Source of the DNA: Turneriella parva DSM 21527
GTDB taxonomy: Bacteria; Spirochaetota; Leptospiria; Turneriellales; Turneriellaceae
Assembly: GCF_000266885.1 (NCBI RefSeq)
Contig: NC_018020.1
Span: forward strand, 1,674,001 to 1,738,000
Length of the DNA: 64,000 nt
Direction of reading: 5' to 3'
Within the stretch, counting starts at the first letter, position 1. Each line of letters begins with the position of its first letter. A model generated the notes under the pieces. The model saw nothing but the letters and a program-made list of their open reading frames with translations. It did not search any database and was not told where the DNA came from. Shown one piece after another: positions 14,353-41,237 of the stretch. A program made the position numbers and the translations under genes.

Positions 14353-15369
14353 ATGCAGCTCAACGATAAGTTAAAAACTTATCTCGCAGAAAAAAATGGC
14401 GGCACTGTTGAAATCGCCGAATTTCGCCAGCTCTCAGGCGGCGCCTGCCAGGATAACTACCTCGCGCGGCTAAAATCTTCTGAGCAAGAAGAGACGCTCG
14501 TCTTGCGTACCGATAAAGGCGGCGCGCTCTTGGGCAGCCTCTCGCGCGCGCAAGAATACCAGGTGATTGAGCGCGCTGTCGCCGCGGGCGTGCTGACGCC
14601 GCCCGTGAAGTGGCTCAGTGAAGACAACACTATCGTTGGCCATCCATTCTATTTGATGCAGAAGATCGATGGCACCGCCAATCCGCGCGACATTCTCAAG
14701 AGCAAGAAGATCGATTTCAAGCGCCTCGCAGCGGATATAGCAACCAACCTTGCGAAAATTCACAGTGTCGATTACTCTCCGGATGTTCTGCCGTTTCTTG
14801 ACCGCAAGCTGCGGCCGGGCACCAGCGATGTCGCCCTCACCGCCGTTGGCGACTGCCGTCGCCTGCTCGACGAATTGCCCGGCGGTTACCCTGGCATCGA
14901 GCTCTGCCTCAACTGGGCCGAAGCGAATGCGCCGGTCACTGACACCCTCGTACTCGCGCACAGCGACTTTCGCAGCGGCAATTTTATGGTCGATGTCGCA
15001 GGTGGTGGCAACCTGACGGGTATACTCGACTGGGAGTTCGCGCATTGGAGCGACCGCCATGAAGACATCGGCTACATTCGCATGCGCGATTGGCGCTTCG
15101 GCAAAGTCAAGAATGAAGTAGGGGGATTTTCTTCTGCCGAAGATTTCTACCCGCACTACGAGGCGGCTTCGCAGACGAAAATTGACCCGGTAAAGGTGCG
15201 CTATTGGGAAGTCATGGGCAACATACGCTGGGCAATCGGTGCGGCACAACAGGGCGAACGCCACCTCTCAGGCAAAGACAAAGGTATTGAATTCGCCTCG
15301 ATCGGTCGCCGCGTGGCTGAAATGGAGCTCGAGGCAATGCGTCTGATTGAAGGCGGCGTGCACGATTAG
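14353..15369 (+). CDS. Phosphotransferase family protein (APH fold, ACAD10-like)
   Basis: A 338-residue aminoglycoside-phosphotransferase-fold kinase. The catalytic loop is LAHSDFRSGNFMVD (H-x-D-x4-N) and the metal site GILDWEFAHWSD. Relatives commonly sit beside acyl-CoA dehydrogenases and DUF6285 genes and are thought to phosphorylate hydroxyacyl-CoA-type substrates in lipid or sterol breakdown. The next gene, 15 nt away, is DUF6285, which reproduces that pairing. Antibiotic resistance is not implied. Confidence 0.85.
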   Translation: MQLNDKLKTYLAEKNGGTVEIAEFRQLSGGACQDNYLARLKSSEQEETLVLRTDKGGALLGSLSRAQEYQVIERAVAAGVLTPPVKWLSEDNTIVGHPFYLMQKIDGTANPRDILKSKKIDFKRLAADIATNLAKIHSVDYSPDVLPFLDRKLRPGTSDVALTAVGDCRRLLDELPGGYPGIELCLNWAEANAPVTDTLVLAHSDFRSGNFMVDVAGGGNLTGILDWEFAHWSDRHEDIGYIRMRDWRFGKVKNEVGGFSSAEDFYPHYEAASQTKIDPVKVRYWEVMGNIRWAIGAAQQGERHLSGKDKGIEFASIGRRVAEMELEAMRLIEGGVHD

Positions 15370-15384
15370 GCACAAGGAAACCTC

Positions 15385-15777
15385 ATGCAGTACAGACCCG
15401 AACATACAGACCTTCTCGATGCAATACAGGATTTTCTAATCAAAGAAGTTCTGCCCACAGTTAAAGACAACGACGCCGTCGCCTATAAGACCCTTGTCTC
15501 ATGGAACATGCTCGGTGTTGTCTCGCGCGAGTTAAAAAACGGCAGAACTTTGCTTGAGCAAGATGCGGCAGCACTCGCGCAATTGCTCGGCGAAAAAATT
15601 AATCCTCATGAGTTAGCCGACAGAGCGCTGTGGCAGAAGTCGCAGCAGTTGGCGCTTGCGGCGGCAAAGGCGATTCGCAAGAGCAGGGTAAGCGTTGGCA
15701 GCGCCGAGTGGATGACCGTGAAAGAGGTGTTGAAGCACAATTTGCAGATTGCGAATCCCAGATATGGAACTGAATAG
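15385..15777 (+). CDS. DUF6285 domain protein
   Basis: A 130-residue helical protein matching the DUF6285 pattern (HTDLLDAIQDFL, LPTVKDNDAVAYKTLVSWNMLGVVSREL). The family has no known reaction but is usually next to an APH-fold kinase, as here, and often near an acyl-CoA dehydrogenase, which is absent from this window. It probably acts with the kinase at 14353. Confidence 0.75.
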   Translation: MQYRPEHTDLLDAIQDFLIKEVLPTVKDNDAVAYKTLVSWNMLGVVSRELKNGRTLLEQDAAALAQLLGEKINPHELADRALWQKSQQLALAAAKAIRKSRVSVGSAEWMTVKEVLKHNLQIANPRYGTE

Positions 15778-15800
15778 AAATGGAATTGCAAATCTCAGGG

Positions 15801-15893
15801 TCATTCCCGCGAACCCTTCGACGTCGCTCAGGCCAAGAGCGGGAATCTATACTTCTGTACATGAGAATAGACACCCGCTTTCGCGGGTGTGAC
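15801..15893. repeat. Paired GC-rich palindromic repeat unit
   Basis: Two hairpins in tandem: ATTCCCGC (15803-15810) with GCGGGAAT (15839-15846), and ACACCCGC (15871-15878) with GCGGGTGT (15883-15890, loop TTTC). The first loop holds a diverged form of the CCTTCGACAGGCTCAGG repeat found in the dehydrogenase gene at 17543. The arrangement is like widespread dispersed palindromic repeats of bacterial intergenic DNA. Confidence 0.6.
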
Positions 15894-15925
15894 CGATAAA
15901 CTGAGTTAAACAAGAGGTTATTAAC

Positions 15926-16459
15926 ATGAATGAAATTCTAATCTTTCTCTGCGCAATCTCCGCTATCATTCTCGGCGCAATCACAATCAACAAAATCAAG
16001 GGCGTCAAGGCGCAGTACCTTGACGCATTTACTGCTGAGCCGGGCGAAGAGGTTTTGCACCGCGAGGCAGGCGCCGATTTTCACATGGTGACAAGACTCG
16101 GCCGTGCACAGGTGATGTCGTTTGCGCGCCTGCGGCGCGCCGAACTTATCGTCACGAACCGGCGCATTGTCATCGGGCAGAAGGTAATGTTCGGTAAGCG
16201 CTACATGATCACGCATACCATCTGGCTCGAGGCGGCCGCGAATGTGCAGACCGAGCTCGACAAAATGACCGGCGGCCAGTACTCATTGGGTTACGTGAAC
16301 TATCTGGTGAAGCGATCGGCGGCGACCGCTGAGATCGACGGCAAAAAGCCTTATGTCAAATTCGTTCCCGAACCGACTGCCAGTGCGACGAACATCGAAC
16401 ACCTGCGCGTCTATGTCGATGCGCCTGAAAAACTGCTGGGGGCAATTGCGGGTAAGTGA
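15926..16459 (+). CDS. Membrane-anchored protein with possible PH-like domain
   Basis: A 177-residue protein with one N-terminal membrane segment (ILIFLCAISAIILGAITI) and a cytosolic part rich in strands, including AELIVTNRRIVIG, a pattern common in bacterial PH-like (bPH) domains. No firm family. A strong AAGAGG ribosome site precedes the ATG. It lies between the palindromic repeat and a histidine-phosphatase gene. Confidence 0.55.
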   Translation: MNEILIFLCAISAIILGAITINKIKGVKAQYLDAFTAEPGEEVLHREAGADFHMVTRLGRAQVMSFARLRRAELIVTNRRIVIGQKVMFGKRYMITHTIWLEAAANVQTELDKMTGGQYSLGYVNYLVKRSAATAEIDGKKPYVKFVPEPTASATNIEHLRVYVDAPEKLLGAIAGK

Positions 16460-16513
16460 GGCCCATGCGCTGCCTGAGCCACGGATGGCGCGCCATGGCG
16501 GAGTGCGTAATTC

Positions 16514-17269
16514 ATGGTTGAGTTAACGCTGATCCGCCATGGCCAGGCAGACAGCGCCGGCGATAACTATGACCAGCTGACGCCGACGGGCCATGAACAG
16601 GCGCGGCGTGTGGGGGAGTGGCTTGCCGCAGACGGATATAGGTTCGACAGGCTCTTTCACGGTGGCTTAAACCGCCAGCGCCAGACGCTTGAGGCGATTT
16701 GTGCTGAACTTGCGAAAAGTGGCGCAGTTATGCCTGCTATGGAAATCCATAGCAGTTATGCGGAGTTTGATCTCAAGGTTTGGGGTATCATTGCCGCAAA
16801 AATGCGGCATGGACACCCTGAATTCGCCGAACTGTTTAAGCAGTGGAATCATGCCAGGCAAATGGATGCCGCGAATAAGGGCGATATTTTCAAGCAGCTG
16901 ACCGGCCATATTCTCAAGGCCTGGGTCGCGGCCGGTGAAAACTTCAACGAAGCCGAGAGTTTTCCTGCGTTTCAGAAGCGGGTGCTTGCAGCTCTGGAAA
17001 TACATAGCGACTACATTGCGCCGAAAAATGACGATTTGGAAGCAGCTCGGGAATTCCATAGCTGCAAGTTTCTCGCCGTCACATCGGGTGGGCCGATTTC
17101 ATTGCTGGTCGGGCAGGTACTCGGGCTTGATCTCGCGCGTACCCTCGGCCTCATGCGACGTATTGCAAATACTTCGATTCACCACCTCATTTATGAGAAG
17201 GGCGATTGGCAGGTCGCTGGGTTCAATATCGTGCCGCACCTGTCGCTCAGCGAGCGCACGCTGGTGTAG
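16514..17269 (+). CDS. Histidine phosphatase superfamily protein
   Basis: A 251-residue phosphoglycerate-mutase-like protein. The phospho-histidine motif is LIRHGQAD at residues ~6-13 and a Glu-containing SYAEFDLKVWG region follows. The second catalytic His, normally in a T-H-GG motif, appears as TSGGPIS, a substitution also seen in some family branches. It likely dephosphorylates small molecules or proteins; substrate unknown. Confidence 0.82.
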   Translation: MVELTLIRHGQADSAGDNYDQLTPTGHEQARRVGEWLAADGYRFDRLFHGGLNRQRQTLEAICAELAKSGAVMPAMEIHSSYAEFDLKVWGIIAAKMRHGHPEFAELFKQWNHARQMDAANKGDIFKQLTGHILKAWVAAGENFNEAESFPAFQKRVLAALEIHSDYIAPKNDDLEAAREFHSCKFLAVTSGGPISLLVGQVLGLDLARTLGLMRRIANTSIHHLIYEKGDWQVAGFNIVPHLSLSERTLV

Positions 17270-17348
17270 ATTGCTCGCCGTCGCCCGTCGCCCGGTGTTT
17301 CAGGAAAACCCGATTGACGCATCAGGCGTTGCGTACCCACGGTCTCGC

Positions 17349-17534
17349 ATGAGAGTCTTCGTTGCATTTTTGGCTTTGGTGCTCGTCGCCTCAACGCACG
17401 CTTCACAGCCCTGCGTCACGACAAAATTTGAAACAGAAATGTACGCCGATGCGTGCAAGGTGGGTGGTCAAGACATTGTGCCCATTAGTCCCAATATGCA
17501 TGGCAAGCCGAAACCAGATATTCTGAAGAAGTAG
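17349..17534 (+). CDS. Small secreted protein, unknown
   Basis: A 61-residue ORF with a convincing signal peptide (MRVFVAFLALVLVASTHA) and a short mature part with two cysteines (QPC, DAC), which may form a disulfide in the periplasm. It ends 8 nt before the dehydrogenase start, so co-transcription is likely. No family is recognised. Confidence 0.5.
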   Translation: MRVFVAFLALVLVASTHASQPCVTTKFETEMYADACKVGGQDIVPISPNMHGKPKPDILKK

Positions 17535-17542
17535 AGAGAATC

Positions 17543-18325
17543 ATGACGCAAAAAACAGTACTCATCACCGGCGCAACGCGCGGTATCGGTAAGGGTGTGG
17601 CGATTGCATTTGCCGATGCCGGATGGATCGTTTACGGTACAGGCCGCCCTTCGACAGGCTCAGGGCGACCGTTATCCGAAACGGCTTGGGCCGCAGAAAA
17701 GAAGATAATCCTCAAAGAAGCCGATGTTGCCGACCAGCCGCGCATGGCTGAGATTATGCAGGATATCAAAGACAAACACGGCCGGCTCGACTGCCTGATC
17801 AACAACGCCGGCGTCGCATCGAATACACCTGCCTCTGCGCTCGGCGATGAAGAAATTGCGAAGATTATCGATACCAACTTCAAGGCGGTCTTCACCTGCT
17901 GCCAGAGTTATTATAAAATGCAGCGTAAGTCGGGCCCTTCGACAGGCTCAGGGCAAGTGGCCGCAAAAGGCGGTGGCTGTATAATCAATATCTCGAGCGT
18001 GCTCGGCATCGTCGGCACTTCGCTCGCTTCGGTTTACTCGGGCACGAAGGGTGCGGTGATCTCGATGACGAAGGCGCTCGCAATTGAATGGGCGAACTCG
18101 GGCTTTCGTGTCAACGCGATCTGCCCGGGCTTTATCGACACCGACATGACCGACATGCTGAAAAAACGCGAATCGGTGATGGCGAAGATGCTTGAATTTA
18201 TTCCGCTGAAGCGCCTCGGCACACCCGAAGACATTGCAGCGCCTGCGATCATGCTCGCATCAGACGGTGCGGCTTACATTACCGGGCAGATTATTGTTGT
18301 CGACGGGGGCTTGACCGCGATGTAG
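17543..18325 (+). CDS. Short-chain dehydrogenase/reductase (FabG-like) with two repeat-derived insertions
   Basis: A 260-residue SDR. The NAD(P) site is TGATRGIGKG, followed by NNAG, the catalytic Ser in INISS, and YSGTK (YxxxK). The C-terminus IIVVDGGLTAM is typical of 3-oxoacyl-ACP reductase-like members. Two loops are lengthened by PSTGSG-containing segments (about residues 36-41 and 132-137), each encoded by an identical palindromic DNA repeat in the same frame. Both lie outside the catalytic motifs, so the enzyme may still fold. The substrate is unknown. Confidence 0.88.
   Translation: MTQKTVLITGATRGIGKGVAIAFADAGWIVYGTGRPSTGSGRPLSETAWAAEKKIILKEADVADQPRMAEIMQDIKDKHGRLDCLINNAGVASNTPASALGDEEIAKIIDTNFKAVFTCCQSYYKMQRKSGPSTGSGQVAAKGGGCIINISSVLGIVGTSLASVYSGTKGAVISMTKALAIEWANSGFRVNAICPGFIDTDMTDMLKKRESVMAKMLEFIPLKRLGTPEDIAAPAIMLASDGAAYITGQIIVVDGGLTAM
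17646..17666 (+). repeat. Palindromic repeat inserted in SDR gene, copy 1
   Basis: Core CCTTCGACAGGCTCAGG with flanking GCC/GGC that pair. Identical over 21 nt to 17934-17954. It encodes PSTGSG in frame within the Rossmann-domain loop after the first beta-alpha-beta unit. Confidence 0.85.
17934..17954 (+). repeat. Palindromic repeat inserted in SDR gene, copy 2
   Basis: Identical to copy 1 over 21 nt, same strand and same reading frame. It encodes PSTGSG between the fourth helix (YYKMQRK) and the GGGCIINISS strand. Confidence 0.85.
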
Positions 18326-18343
18326 TTTTCGCGTGCGCGAAAA
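18326..18343 (+). terminator. Short hairpin after SDR gene
   Basis: TTTTCGCG and CGCGAAAA with a 2-base centre, starting immediately after the stop codon. The effective loop would be larger; no T-run follows, so terminator function is uncertain. Confidence 0.3.
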
Positions 18344-18387
18344 ACGGTTTGACGGATTGCTGCAAGCCGTGAATACTCGCACTCGCC

Positions 18388-20832
18388 ATGCCTGTTGCTC
18401 CGCTGCCAGCGAACGAAGCGGAGCGATTAGAAAAAGTTAAATCATACCACCTGCTCGACACCCTCGCTGAAGAGGCCTTTGATGAATTGGCGCGCTTTGC
18501 CTCAAGACTTTGCGGCACCCCGGTTTCTCTTATCACTCTGATCGATGGAAAAAGGCAGTGGTTCAAGTCTGCTGTCGGCATGGCAAGGCCTGAGACGCCA
18601 CGCGAGCAGACGATCTGCCAGCATACAATTTTGCAGAACGACCTGCTCGAAATAGAAGATTCGCGCCTTGATTCGCGCACCGAAGATAATCCCAATGTAA
18701 CTGCTGAGCCTGGCGTGCGCCACTATGCGGGAATTCCCCTCACGACGGCCGACGGGTACAACATCGGCACATTTTGTGTGGTGGACTTTAAGCCGGGTCG
18801 GCTGACAGAGCTGCAGCGCGAAGGTTTCAAGACGCTCGCGCGCCAGGCGATGCGCCTGATGGAATTTCGCAAACTTTCTTACGAATACAAGGCGCTGAGT
18901 GACCGCTACAGTGCCCTCTACCAATACTCACCCATCGCCGAGCTGGTCGTGGATAACGAGGGCAGGGTCGTCGACGCGAATGATGCGGCGGCAAAACTGC
19001 TGGGGCGGCAGCATGCTGAAATTCAGGGCCAGCGCGCTTTTTATGAGGCTCTCGATGAGACGAGCAGACATGTCGCCGCCGATGTGCAAACAGCACTTGA
19101 GGCAAAGGGCCATATCGAAGGCACCGAACTAAAGTTGCACAGCGCGGCGGCGGGGCTAAAGAATGTTATGGCCAATACCGTGGTTCTCAGAGACGAATCG
19201 GGTAAGCGCGTGGGTGCACACATAACCCTGCAGGATATCACGGCGCTCAAAGCGATCGAGGCGCAGCTCGTCGAAGCGAGGGCTCTCGCAGAATCGGCGA
19301 ATCGTGCTAAATCGGATTTCTTGGCCGTGATGAGCCATGAAATTCGCACTCCGCTCAACGGCATGATCGGTATGGTGAGCATACTTAAAGAATCGAACCT
19401 CAACGATGAGCAGCAACGGTATCTCGGTATAATCGAGCGCAGCGGCGCCATGCTCATGAACGTGATCGGCAACGTGCTGGACTTTTCGAAATTGCAAGCC
19501 GACGCTATGGAGCGCAGCGACACAACGTTTGACCTTTACCAGACCCTGAGCGAAGTTTACGATCTGTTCTCAGCACGCGCAAAAGAAAAAGATGTCGAAC
19601 TGATTCTTTCGATTGACCCGAAGATTCCGAGGCTTATGATCAGCGACCAGACCAAGCTGCGCCAGATCGTCATGAATTTGGTTTCGAATGCGCTTAAGTT
19701 CACCGATAAGGGTGGTGTCACAATGCGCGTATCGCTTGTTGAACCCCAGGCAGCAGCAGAGATGCTGCGTATCGCAGTTGAAGACAGCGGTATCGGCATG
19801 AGCGCGCAGCAGCTCGAAAGGTTGTTTAAACCTTTTTCGCAGGCAGATGGTTCCATTTCACGCCGCTTCGGTGGTACCGGGCTCGGCCTATCGATTGCAA
19901 AAAAACTGACGGAACTTCTCGGGGGTACTATCGACGTGCAGAGCACGATCGGTAAAGGCAGCGTGTTTTCATTCGCGATACCGGCAAAATTCGACCTCGT
20001 GTCTGAGCAGCGCACGGAGGGCGAATTCGTGGGCACTGGCTTTTTTGCCGGCCGCAAATTTCTGCTCGTCGACAACCTGCCGGTGAACCTTGAAATCGTG
20101 CAGCGTATGCTCGAATCGCTGCAAATTACCGTTGTACCTTGCGAAAACCCTAAGGCGGCACCAGAGCTGGCTCAGAAAAACCAATTCGATGCAGCCATTC
20201 TCGATCTCAACATGCCGGGTATGAATGGGTTAGAGGTGGCCGAAGCGCTCAAGACTATCTCGCCGAAAACAATCCGCATATTGCTGTCTTCTATTGCCGT
20301 GACCCGCAGCGCCGAAACGGAGAATGTATTTCACCATACGCTGACGAAACCGGTGCGCCGGGAACAGCTTGTTTATGTGCTATCGCGCCTCTTGCCGCCG
20401 CAAAATGGTACTGAAACAGAAGAGATCGCGAGCAGAGATGTTCTTGCCCACCAGCATGTGTTAATCGTCGAAGACGACTCCGTGAACCAAACAATTTCGC
20501 GCATTACGCTCGAAAAATTCGGAGCGACCACCGACACCGCTGCAGACGGCCAGGCGGCACTCGACTGTGCCTCGCGCCGCGACTACGCGTTCGTCTTGCT
20601 AGACATGCACCTACCCGATATCGATGGTTTTGCGCTGGCAGAAAAACTTCTGAAAGTTCGGCCTTCGCTCAGACTCGTTTGTTTTACCGCCGACGTGACG
20701 CTTGTGCCTGACGCACGGCTGCGGCAAGTGGGTATTATCGACAAGCTGTCAAAGCCTGCCACGGTGCAAGATTTTGCTGCGTTTCTCGCCCGGGCCGATT
20801 GGTTGATTACGCCAGTTTCTTCAGCACAGTGA
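18388..20832 (+). CDS. Hybrid sensor histidine kinase (GAF-PAS-HisKA-HATPase-REC-REC)
   Basis: An 814-residue cytosolic kinase without membrane segments. A GAF domain (~25-160) and PAS domain (~170-290) sense the signal. The dimerisation helix holds H317 in MSHEIRTPLNG, and the ATPase has NLVSNALKFTD, DSGIG (466-470) and GTGLGLSI (~497). Receiver 1 has D606 in LDLNMPG but its acidic pocket reads VDN instead of a double Asp, so metal binding may be weak. Receiver 2 is complete (VEDD, D739 in LLDMHLP). It overlaps the convergent RsbW-like gene by 26 nt. Confidence 0.93.
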   Translation: MPVAPLPANEAERLEKVKSYHLLDTLAEEAFDELARFASRLCGTPVSLITLIDGKRQWFKSAVGMARPETPREQTICQHTILQNDLLEIEDSRLDSRTEDNPNVTAEPGVRHYAGIPLTTADGYNIGTFCVVDFKPGRLTELQREGFKTLARQAMRLMEFRKLSYEYKALSDRYSALYQYSPIAELVVDNEGRVVDANDAAAKLLGRQHAEIQGQRAFYEALDETSRHVAADVQTALEAKGHIEGTELKLHSAAAGLKNVMANTVVLRDESGKRVGAHITLQDITALKAIEAQLVEARALAESANRAKSDFLAVMSHEIRTPLNGMIGMVSILKESNLNDEQQRYLGIIERSGAMLMNVIGNVLDFSKLQADAMERSDTTFDLYQTLSEVYDLFSARAKEKDVELILSIDPKIPRLMISDQTKLRQIVMNLVSNALKFTDKGGVTMRVSLVEPQAAAEMLRIAVEDSGIGMSAQQLERLFKPFSQADGSISRRFGGTGLGLSIAKKLTELLGGTIDVQSTIGKGSVFSFAIPAKFDLVSEQRTEGEFVGTGFFAGRKFLLVDNLPVNLEIVQRMLESLQITVVPCENPKAAPELAQKNQFDAAILDLNMPGMNGLEVAEALKTISPKTIRILLSSIAVTRSAETENVFHHTLTKPVRREQLVYVLSRLLPPQNGTETEEIASRDVLAHQHVLIVEDDSVNQTISRITLEKFGATTDTAADGQAALDCASRRDYAFVLLDMHLPDIDGFALAEKLLKVRPSLRLVCFTADVTLVPDARLRQVGIIDKLSKPATVQDFAAFLARADWLITPVSSAQ

Positions 20833-39469: not shown

Positions 39470-40519
39470 CTAAAAGACGGAAAACCTGAACTCCGCTATC
39501 TGCCGGTAGGTTTCACCGGGGCGCACCAACGTCGAAGGAAAATGCGCGATATTCGGCGAGTTGGGAAAAAACTGCGGCTCGAGGCAGAACGAACCGTGCC
39601 TTCGATAGACCGCGCCCCCTTTGCCCGGCATCGGCGGCAGGTCGTGGTTCGCGGTGTAGAACTGCAGCGCCGGGTAGCTGCTATGGATTTCCATAGCTAT
39701 ACCGGTCTGGGGCGCCACCACGCGCGCGGCGAAATAGAGGCCCGCAGTCGGCGGCCGCGACGTATCGACGACGAAGCATTGATCAAAACCGCCGCAGGTT
39801 CGTAACGGCAGAAAATCCGCCTTAAGCCTATCGCCAATACGTGCGGGATTTCGTAAGTCGAGCGGAGTCTTCTCGACGGGCAAAAGTTTTCCCGTCGGTA
39901 TCGAATCAGCGTCGACTTCGAGGTAATGTGCCGCGTTGATCTGCACGAGATGGTCGTCGATGCTGCCGGCGTCGTGGCCTGCAAGATTGAAGTACGAGTG
40001 GTGCGCGATGTTGAGGTGCGTCGCCTTCTGCGGCACGGCCGTGTATTCGATGCGCAGCGTCGGGCCGGGCAAAAGTCTGTAGTGAATGCTATAGTCGACC
40101 GGGCCGGGAAAACCAAATTCGCCGTCGGGACTGTGGTAGGTGAAGGCAATTCCGTCGGTCGCGGCTGTGGTTCGACTGCGCTCACCACGAGCCCAATTCC
40201 ATAGCACTGAGTCGAGGCCCTGCTCGCCGCTGTGCAAAAGGTGGCCGTTGCCGTTGGGTGTGAAGTGGTATTCGGTGCCGTCGATGGCAAAGCGCGCATT
40301 GGCGATGCGGTTAGCAAACGGGCCGACGTTCGCGCCGAAGAAGCGCGCACCCTTGCGGTAGTCTTCGTCGCTGTCATAGCCCGTCACAACGTCGACGAGG
40401 TTGCCCGTGCGGTCGGGTACCGAGAGCGAGACGAGGCGCGCGCCGTATTCGGTGAAGCGCGCAAATTTGTTATTTAAGAAATTCGCCAAACACCCAACCA
40501 CGTTCAGAAAGCGGCACAT
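39470..40519 (-). CDS. galM: Aldose 1-epimerase (galactose mutarotase)
   Basis: A 349-residue GalM-family protein. Catalytic His residues are seen in GNGHLLHSGEQGLD and NIAHHSYFNLAGH, with a late FCLEPQFFPNSPN carrying the Glu. It interconverts alpha and beta anomers of galactose or glucose, feeding GalK at 32767. The ATG at 40519 overlaps the upstream gene by 50 nt; a TTG near 40489 is possible. Confidence 0.92.
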   Translation of the reverse strand: MCRFLNVVGCLANFLNNKFARFTEYGARLVSLSVPDRTGNLVDVVTGYDSDEDYRKGARFFGANVGPFANRIANARFAIDGTEYHFTPNGNGHLLHSGEQGLDSVLWNWARGERSRTTAATDGIAFTYHSPDGEFGFPGPVDYSIHYRLLPGPTLRIEYTAVPQKATHLNIAHHSYFNLAGHDAGSIDDHLVQINAAHYLEVDADSIPTGKLLPVEKTPLDLRNPARIGDRLKADFLPLRTCGGFDQCFVVDTSRPPTAGLYFAARVVAPQTGIAMEIHSSYPALQFYTANHDLPPMPGKGGAVYRRHGSFCLEPQFFPNSPNIAHFPSTLVRPGETYRQIAEFRFSVF

Positions 40520-41237
40520 TGCCCATGGCGTCTACTGCGTCGATCTCAACGTAATACCAATAGTTGTTCCATTTGTCGACCTGCAGCTTTTCGCGCGTTC
40601 TGGCGAGCACGGTGACCTTTTCGCCTTTGCGAAGATTCTTACGCTCTTCAACCGTCCCGTCTTTTTTTTGGGAGTTCCAACTCAAAGCTTCTGAACTCTT
40701 TGACGGTGCCTTGCGTACGATCAGCGTTGTCGTCGGCTTCTTAAATGCGGGTGAGTAGATCACCGCTACGCCATCGACCATTCTTTCGGCGCCGGTTTTG
40801 ACGTGCGCACCGGTATCATAAAAATCGATTTTGTTGCCACCCACGACCGGCTGACATGAAAGCAGTTCGGTATATTGCAGAGATTCTTCGGTTCGCAGCA
40901 AAGTACAGCGCAGGTCGCCCGGCACCTCTCCGTCTATGCCGGCGCTGGTTCTCTTGAAGCCGGTGATCACGACGGCCCCAGTGTCGATCGTATACCGCCC
41001 CTCGGCTTGCACATCCAGCTCGGCGATCGCCTGTATATATTTGGCGACCCCTTTCTTAAAGCTCAGCTTATATTCATAGCCCGGGTGGTTGGGTTCGGCA
41101 TTCCACTTACCCTGCGCGAGCCTCTTCTCGCTCAATGGCAGAGCCTGCGCAAAAACGGCAAAGCCGAGAAAAAAAGTACAAACGGTTATGGCCCGGCAGA
41201 GTCTCGCTATCAGGCCAATGCGGATTTCGAAAGTCAT
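40470..41237 (-). CDS. Exported SH3b-like domain protein
   Basis: A 255-residue protein (ATG 41237) with a signal peptide (AITVCTFFLGFAVFAQA). The C-terminus has a bacterial SH3-like segment: TTLIVRKAPSKSSE, LRKGEKVTVLART, WYYVEIDA and ERGWVFGEFLK. SH3b modules often bind cell-wall peptides. The N-terminal part is unassigned. It lies 5 nt after the VOC gene and overlaps galM. Confidence 0.7.
   Translation of the reverse strand: MTFEIRIGLIARLCRAITVCTFFLGFAVFAQALPLSEKRLAQGKWNAEPNHPGYEYKLSFKKGVAKYIQAIAELDVQAEGRYTIDTGAVVITGFKRTSAGIDGEVPGDLRCTLLRTEESLQYTELLSCQPVVGGNKIDFYDTGAHVKTGAERMVDGVAVIYSPAFKKPTTTLIVRKAPSKSSEALSWNSQKKDGTVEERKNLRKGEKVTVLARTREKLQVDKWNNYWYYVEIDAVDAMGNVPLSERGWVFGEFLK

Follow-up and report, generated by a model that had tools for sequence, protein, structure and literature searches.

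Two in-frame copies of a dispersed REP-like hairpin in a short-chain dehydrogenase gene of Turneriella parva

According to PMC3733652, palindromic repeats of the GTAG and CGTC families can be intragenic and in frame, a single gene can hold two of them, and two related species can carry one at nearly the same site. The GTAG REPs and REPINs that occur with RAYT are dispersed imperfect palindromes in opposite-facing pairs, and the CGTC REPs (Di Nocera 2013) are small hairpins with facing dimers, intragenic copies and no dedicated transposase. The same paper describes the RPE of Rickettsia as short palindromes in frame in genes, with families, dimers and double insertions, whose host genes likely still encode working proteins. 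The Turneriella parva element described here shares with each group the traits named for it and differs from all three in the hairpin itself. CGTC REPs, to which RPE-4 and RPE-6 belong, have 8-9-bp stems with AT pairs first and loops of 4-5 nt according to PMC3733652. The T. parva element has another core, its loop is large and fixed, and three of its arm pairs covary; its core-adjacent pairs are mostly G-C, the outer ones of its type A are GTCA/TGAC, and its constant centre (TTCGAC-N2/3-GCTCA) measures 13-14 nt. It carries no unpaired CGTC (or TGTC/CCTC) tag, GTCA being paired with TGAC in type A and type B being without a tag. It also lacks the unpaired terminal GTAG (right tails are TGAC, CARG or ACC, and left flanks are GTCA or unconserved) and the flanking Y1 transposase of GTAG REPs. 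Intragenic in-frame REPs are thus already known. The core sequence was not found in the open-licence PMC literature on repeats that was searched, where 12-mer matches occurred only in papers titled on other subjects; a search of that literature for peptide readings gave an unrelated match only.

The window, the whole 64-kb stretch analysed (64,000 nucleotides of T. parva DSM 21527, bases 1674001-1738000 of the larger contig), contains at 17543-18325 on the plus strand an ORF of 260 aa whose product is a FabG-like short-chain dehydrogenase/reductase by sequence and fold. Its best PDB sequence matches are 2hq1 and 3osu, its fold matches FabG structures, and G10, G14, I15, G16, S152, Y165 and K169 are invariant among 29 sequences, with N112 also conserved. 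We take TGxxxGIG to be the cofactor motif and S/YxxxK the catalytic residues of short-chain dehydrogenases, and the invariant positions cover both. The ORF carries the 21-mer GCCCTTCGACAGGCTCAGGGC at 17646-17666 (copy 1) and 17934-17954 (copy 2), on the plus strand, with identical letters and in one common frame that reads PSTGSG at both places, as the preliminary description had reported. Both copies have the loop bases AG and arms CCC/GGG. Their tails differ (CGACC and CAAG), and no similarity extends outside the 21 bp. Copy 1 was put in type A for its CGAC tail, although it lacks the outer GTCA. In the predicted structure (mean pLDDT 87) both inserts are coil with pLDDT <50, at residues 38-41 and 134-140. 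Site 1 comes after strand beta2 (residues 29-34); helix 102-128 precedes site 2 and strand 145-150 follows it. This agrees with the earlier proposal of two loop copies in an enzyme that keeps its catalytic motifs.

Comparison with homologues revealed empty sites for both copies. The closest congener (genome G002) is without the 7 residues of site 1, P36-R42 (codons 17648-17668), and its identity to the T. parva protein is 83% with the inserts counted and 90% without them. The 12-residue insert of site 2 (about 17933-17968) is missing from the other 29 of 30 aligned homologues, and the best PDB relative has a 12-residue gap there too. Homologues that are without the DNA repeat never match these loops in length and residues, so the insertion reading survives the comparison of loops proposed in the preliminary description. 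By these empty orthologous sites, the sequence comparison shows the dehydrogenase repeats to be genuine insertions.

The exact 17-mer within the repeat occurs twice in the window, where all other sites are at least 3 mismatches away; shuffles averaged 0.17 matches when up to 3 mismatches were allowed. The whole genome searched (4,409,302 bases, the larger contig having 4,384,015) held 11 exact copies, 5 of them in called genes, and none of the reversed 17-mer; at up to 3 mismatches the counts were 80 and 3. That the repeat is dispersed, as had been claimed, was confirmed with the core TTCGAC-N2/3-GCTCA, which gave 113 matches against 6 for the reversed core (79 vs 5 with a 2-base loop and 34 vs 1 with a 3-base loop). 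Arms of at least 2 bp adjoin the core in 86 of the 113; the other 27, left out of the gene counts below, are probably in part chance matches. Two tail types were defined post hoc, from copies already inspected: type A has the outer GTCA...TGAC pair, and type B has CARG or ACC on one side only. Watson-Crick pairs at arm positions 1-3 number 43, 45 and 44 of 45 in type A (25.9, 21.6 and 22.6 expected if independent) and 35, 34 and 31 of 36 in type B (17.6, 15.7 and 18.1 expected), and the mean stem score is 3.99, against at most 1.55 in 500 partner shuffles. A chance origin of the repeat is ruled out by the reversed-core controls and this covariation.

All 13 neighbour pairs within 150 bp are in opposite orientation, 32-114 bp apart, and most are of type A. 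With 86 armed copies, 58 of them extragenic, and these 13 opposed pairs, the family has the general character of REPs, and because arm pairs 1-3 vary yet remain complementary, the repeats are a dispersed REP-like hairpin family with a constant loop. The unit is without sharp bounds, and insert lengths are 21, 24 and 36 nt. One further copy in the window, missed by the preliminary description, lies at 40167-40188 (+; core 40171-40184) inside the minus-strand ORF 39473-40531, with arms GTGG/CCAC around TTCGACTGCGCTCA. Rfam gave no matches in 15000-19500 at gathering thresholds. Elsewhere in the genome, three TTCGAC cores, identical in their flanks as well, lie on one strand within about 450 bp (G000:C1:2327626, 2327864 and 2328056, in locus L262, G000:C1:2326126-2329569), which is probably a local duplication.

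Genes were called by codon usage, scored after training on 27 long ORFs from the window, and 28 of the 86 armed copies fell inside them and 58 outside; PMC3746428 gives the coding share of the T. parva genome as 92.14%. By type, 8 of 43 type A, 17 of 33 type B and 3 of 10 other copies are in genes. The 28 copies are spread over 23 ORFs, and a Pfam family above cut-off was found in 18 of the 20 host ORFs scanned. Hosts include methionyl- and prolyl-tRNA synthetase (metG, proS), MnmG, dihydrolipoyl dehydrogenase (lpd), enolase, methionine synthase and an NUBPL-family iron-transfer NTPase, which we take to be an Mrp-type ATPase; some of the hosts are essential enzymes. Against solved structures, the proteins have extra residues at the element (metG 23 aa, lpd 9 aa, mnmG 12 aa, enolase 6 aa), and in proS a facing element pair lies inside the interruption. 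In the genes compared, the copies are RPE-like: they are extra to what homologues have, the reading frame continues through them, and the motifs of the host are preserved.

Five reading frames of the element are open, and the sixth starts with TGA. Among the 28 in-gene copies, those on the gene's strand are in phase 2 (S-T-x) 16 times, phase 1 three times and phase 0 once, and those on the opposite strand are in phase 1 six times and phase 2 twice. The strong bias is that of type B, where phase 2 accounts for 15 of 17 copies (P = 2.9e-9 under five equal frames, uncorrected for the phase having been picked afterwards); in loci of other bacteria it does not recur. Type A copies with TGAC tails cannot use phase 2, since this would create a stop, and tail-A copies in genes are translated LRQAQGD or VSPSN. 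Selection for a soft Ser/Thr/Gly peptide would best explain the type B bias. The earlier idea that the repeat tolerates coding regions by being readable in frame holds in that copies are indeed read through in frame, but the family is mainly extragenic and has no single fixed reading.

A universal reading phase was considered and rejected on the evidence of loci from other bacteria and of partial samples of relatives. Among the matches listed for other genomes (98 matches at 80 loci), 20 are in a called gene, with phases same-strand 0 (5), same-strand 1 (8), same-strand 2 (1), opposite-strand 1 (2) and opposite-strand 2 (4). Tail-B in-gene copies numbered three in G025 (one in phase 2), none in G012 and three in G001 (two in phase 2), in samples of 44, 28 and 10 loci from 97, 97 and 62 core matches, respectively.

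The sites in congeners bear on how the copies arrived. At the same codon of dehydrogenase site 1, G001 and G005 carry GCTTCGACTACGCTCAGC, an element version with a 3-base loop and other arms, and the site is empty in G002, G004 and G006. In metG, T. parva has a facing type-A pair translated LRQAQGD...LSPSKG, G001 has at the same place a single type-B copy translated PSTGSGQ, and G002, G004, G005 and G006 are empty. The lpd gene of G004 has its own type-B copy at a different place, translated TSTPLSDR. Different versions thus occupy one site in three species for dehydrogenase site 1 and in two for metG, and it is these different versions in different congeners that point to repeated insertion; for both sites the comparison suggests repeated arrival as the simpler reading. 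A single old insertion, later altered in subtype or lost, could have produced the same distribution, and the shared site and phase in three congeners at dehydrogenase site 1, together with the weak support on deep branches of the gene tree, speak for it. We nevertheless consider it somewhat improbable, as arms and loop are unlike at both sites, and at the metG site T. parva has a phase-1 type-A pair, G001 one phase-2 type-B copy and four congeners nothing. Copy 2 of the dehydrogenase could also be a local, within-gene copy of copy 1, given that the two 21-mers agree even in the loop AG and the arms CCC/GGG. This is unlikely, because the 17-mer core is also present at nine further places in the genome and the two copies share nothing beyond 21 bp, their tails included.

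Two other readings concern what maintains and what moves the element. Selection of P-S-T-G-S-G for a protein function, such as cofactor binding, with DNA similarity as a consequence, is favoured by the single phase of 15 of 17 in-gene tail-B copies and by more S-T-phase cases in congeners. The host proteins are unrelated, however, the arms covary at the DNA level, the majority of copies are outside genes, one metG site is translated LRQAQGD in T. parva but PSTGSGQ in G001, and both dehydrogenase inserts are low-confidence coil in the predicted structure, which together make such selection very improbable. A classical REP moved by a genome-encoded RAYT (TnpAREP) would account for the REP-like hairpin and for facing pairs 32-114 bp apart, and the T. 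parva genome does have three Y1-transposase genes. Against it, the GTAG tag is absent, the core was found at none of 28 Y1_Tnp loci (3 in T. parva and 25 in relatives, in the DNA around each locus), and the two Y1 proteins profiled, of the three encoded, are IS200-type, the REP-transposase model scoring 27.9 bits with one of them (cut-off 80); we regard this origin as quite unlikely. G003 and G004 gave no Y1 matches despite 45 and 54 copies in genomes that are 82-83% complete, and copy number showed no clear link to Y1 count among 41 genomes compared by eye. The RAYT link was rejected as far as tested, on the core-free Y1 loci, the IS200-type proteins and the lack of a copy-number link.

The explanation that we consider probable is a dispersed REP-like hairpin moved by a putative enzyme acting in trans, whose surviving in-gene copies are in-frame insertions in surface loops. 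The element would fold as a single-stranded hairpin, and a trans-acting enzyme, unlinked to the copies, would recognise the fixed loop and paste copies elsewhere. Most insertions into genes would be lost, and the survivors would be those that add complete codons to a surface loop and encode a soft peptide (PSTGSGQ, GSTALT). The dehydrogenase would have retained two such events, in the beta2-alpha loop and in the loop before the catalytic-serine strand. In TnpAREP systems the hairpin is read by a protein (PMC8266576), and by analogy a fixed loop with free paired arms looks like a protein-read hairpin. More tentatively, and at somewhat less than even likelihood, TTCGAC-N2/3-GCTCA could be the fixed centre of an unnamed superfamily of many phyla with its own recognition enzyme, preferring DNA and protein loops, settling in genes of each lineage on the best-tolerated phase and repeatedly giving rise to new protein loops at identical sites.

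Copies in other genomes were unevenly distributed. Core and reversed-core counts were 97 and 2 in G012, 97 and 2 in G025, and 116 and 3 in G035, and many other relatives were hardly enriched. In G012, many cores are only a few bases from a contig end, so relatives' assemblies may be broken by the element and its copies in them undercounted. At least 118 stretches matching the 17-mer pattern came from a scan of species genomes, and a few dozen chance matches are estimated for this pattern in the whole collection. The search pattern left the third arm pair free; this pair is complementary in 81 of the 98 matches listed (80 loci), where 25% is expected, and it is this proportion, not the hit count, that marks most of the matches as true members. 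Their tails include CGAA (22), TGAC (12), TGAG (10), CAGG (5) and ACCG (4), and the record titles of the 80 loci name many phyla. Loci of many phyla carry this core between complementary arms, which suggests a repeat that is widely shared but unnamed and opens the way to a search for its mobilising enzyme. The congener dehydrogenases, which share 70-90% of residues, provide before/after enzyme pairs with empty and filled loops, and several such pairs are in essential genes; the cost of a natural loop insertion is therefore directly measurable. Peptides encoded by the repeat can also mislead annotation and homology searches.

A diverged form of the repeat had been placed within the palindromic unit at 15801-15893. 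The core is real (15817-15830), in a 24-nt tail-B unit CCC-TTCGAC-GTC-GCTCA-GGC-CAAG at 15814-15837 (+), but the loop that holds it belongs to a different palindrome, a CGTC-type REP (GTCATTCCCGCGAA...AGCGGGAAT) whose attribution follows PMC3733652. This hairpin (15800-15849) is the first of a facing pair at 15800-15893, and its family has 29 genome copies against 1 in the control. In five CGTC-type hairpins, one of them degenerate on the right, a TTCGAC core occupies the same point with the same orientation, and the position of these cores inside the loops marks the TTCGAC and CGTC families as distinct. The nesting would arise if the unit enters hairpin loops, or if one composite was copied whole. 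A flanking inverted match of at least 7 bp surrounds 6 of 33 armed tail-B copies (shuffles: mean 1.31, maximum 6), so a preference for DNA hairpin loops is at most suggestive, and it is weakened further because a composite copied whole also explains the five nested cores.

Two more cores, at G000:C1:1512472 and 3410532, are centred in long perfect palindromes that belong to other families (13 and 11 bp arms). A second coding palindrome was observed in the window, of which 14 GCTATGGAATTCCATAGC-like copies, and no reversed ones, were counted in 366,857 bases of T. parva DNA (overlaps included). Three copies are in frame in ORF 16511-17269 (+), presumably histidine-phosphatase-like, and read AMEIHSSY, ALEIHSDY and AREFHSCK; one more lies in ORF 39473-40531 (-), presumably GalM-like, and again reads AMEIHSSY.
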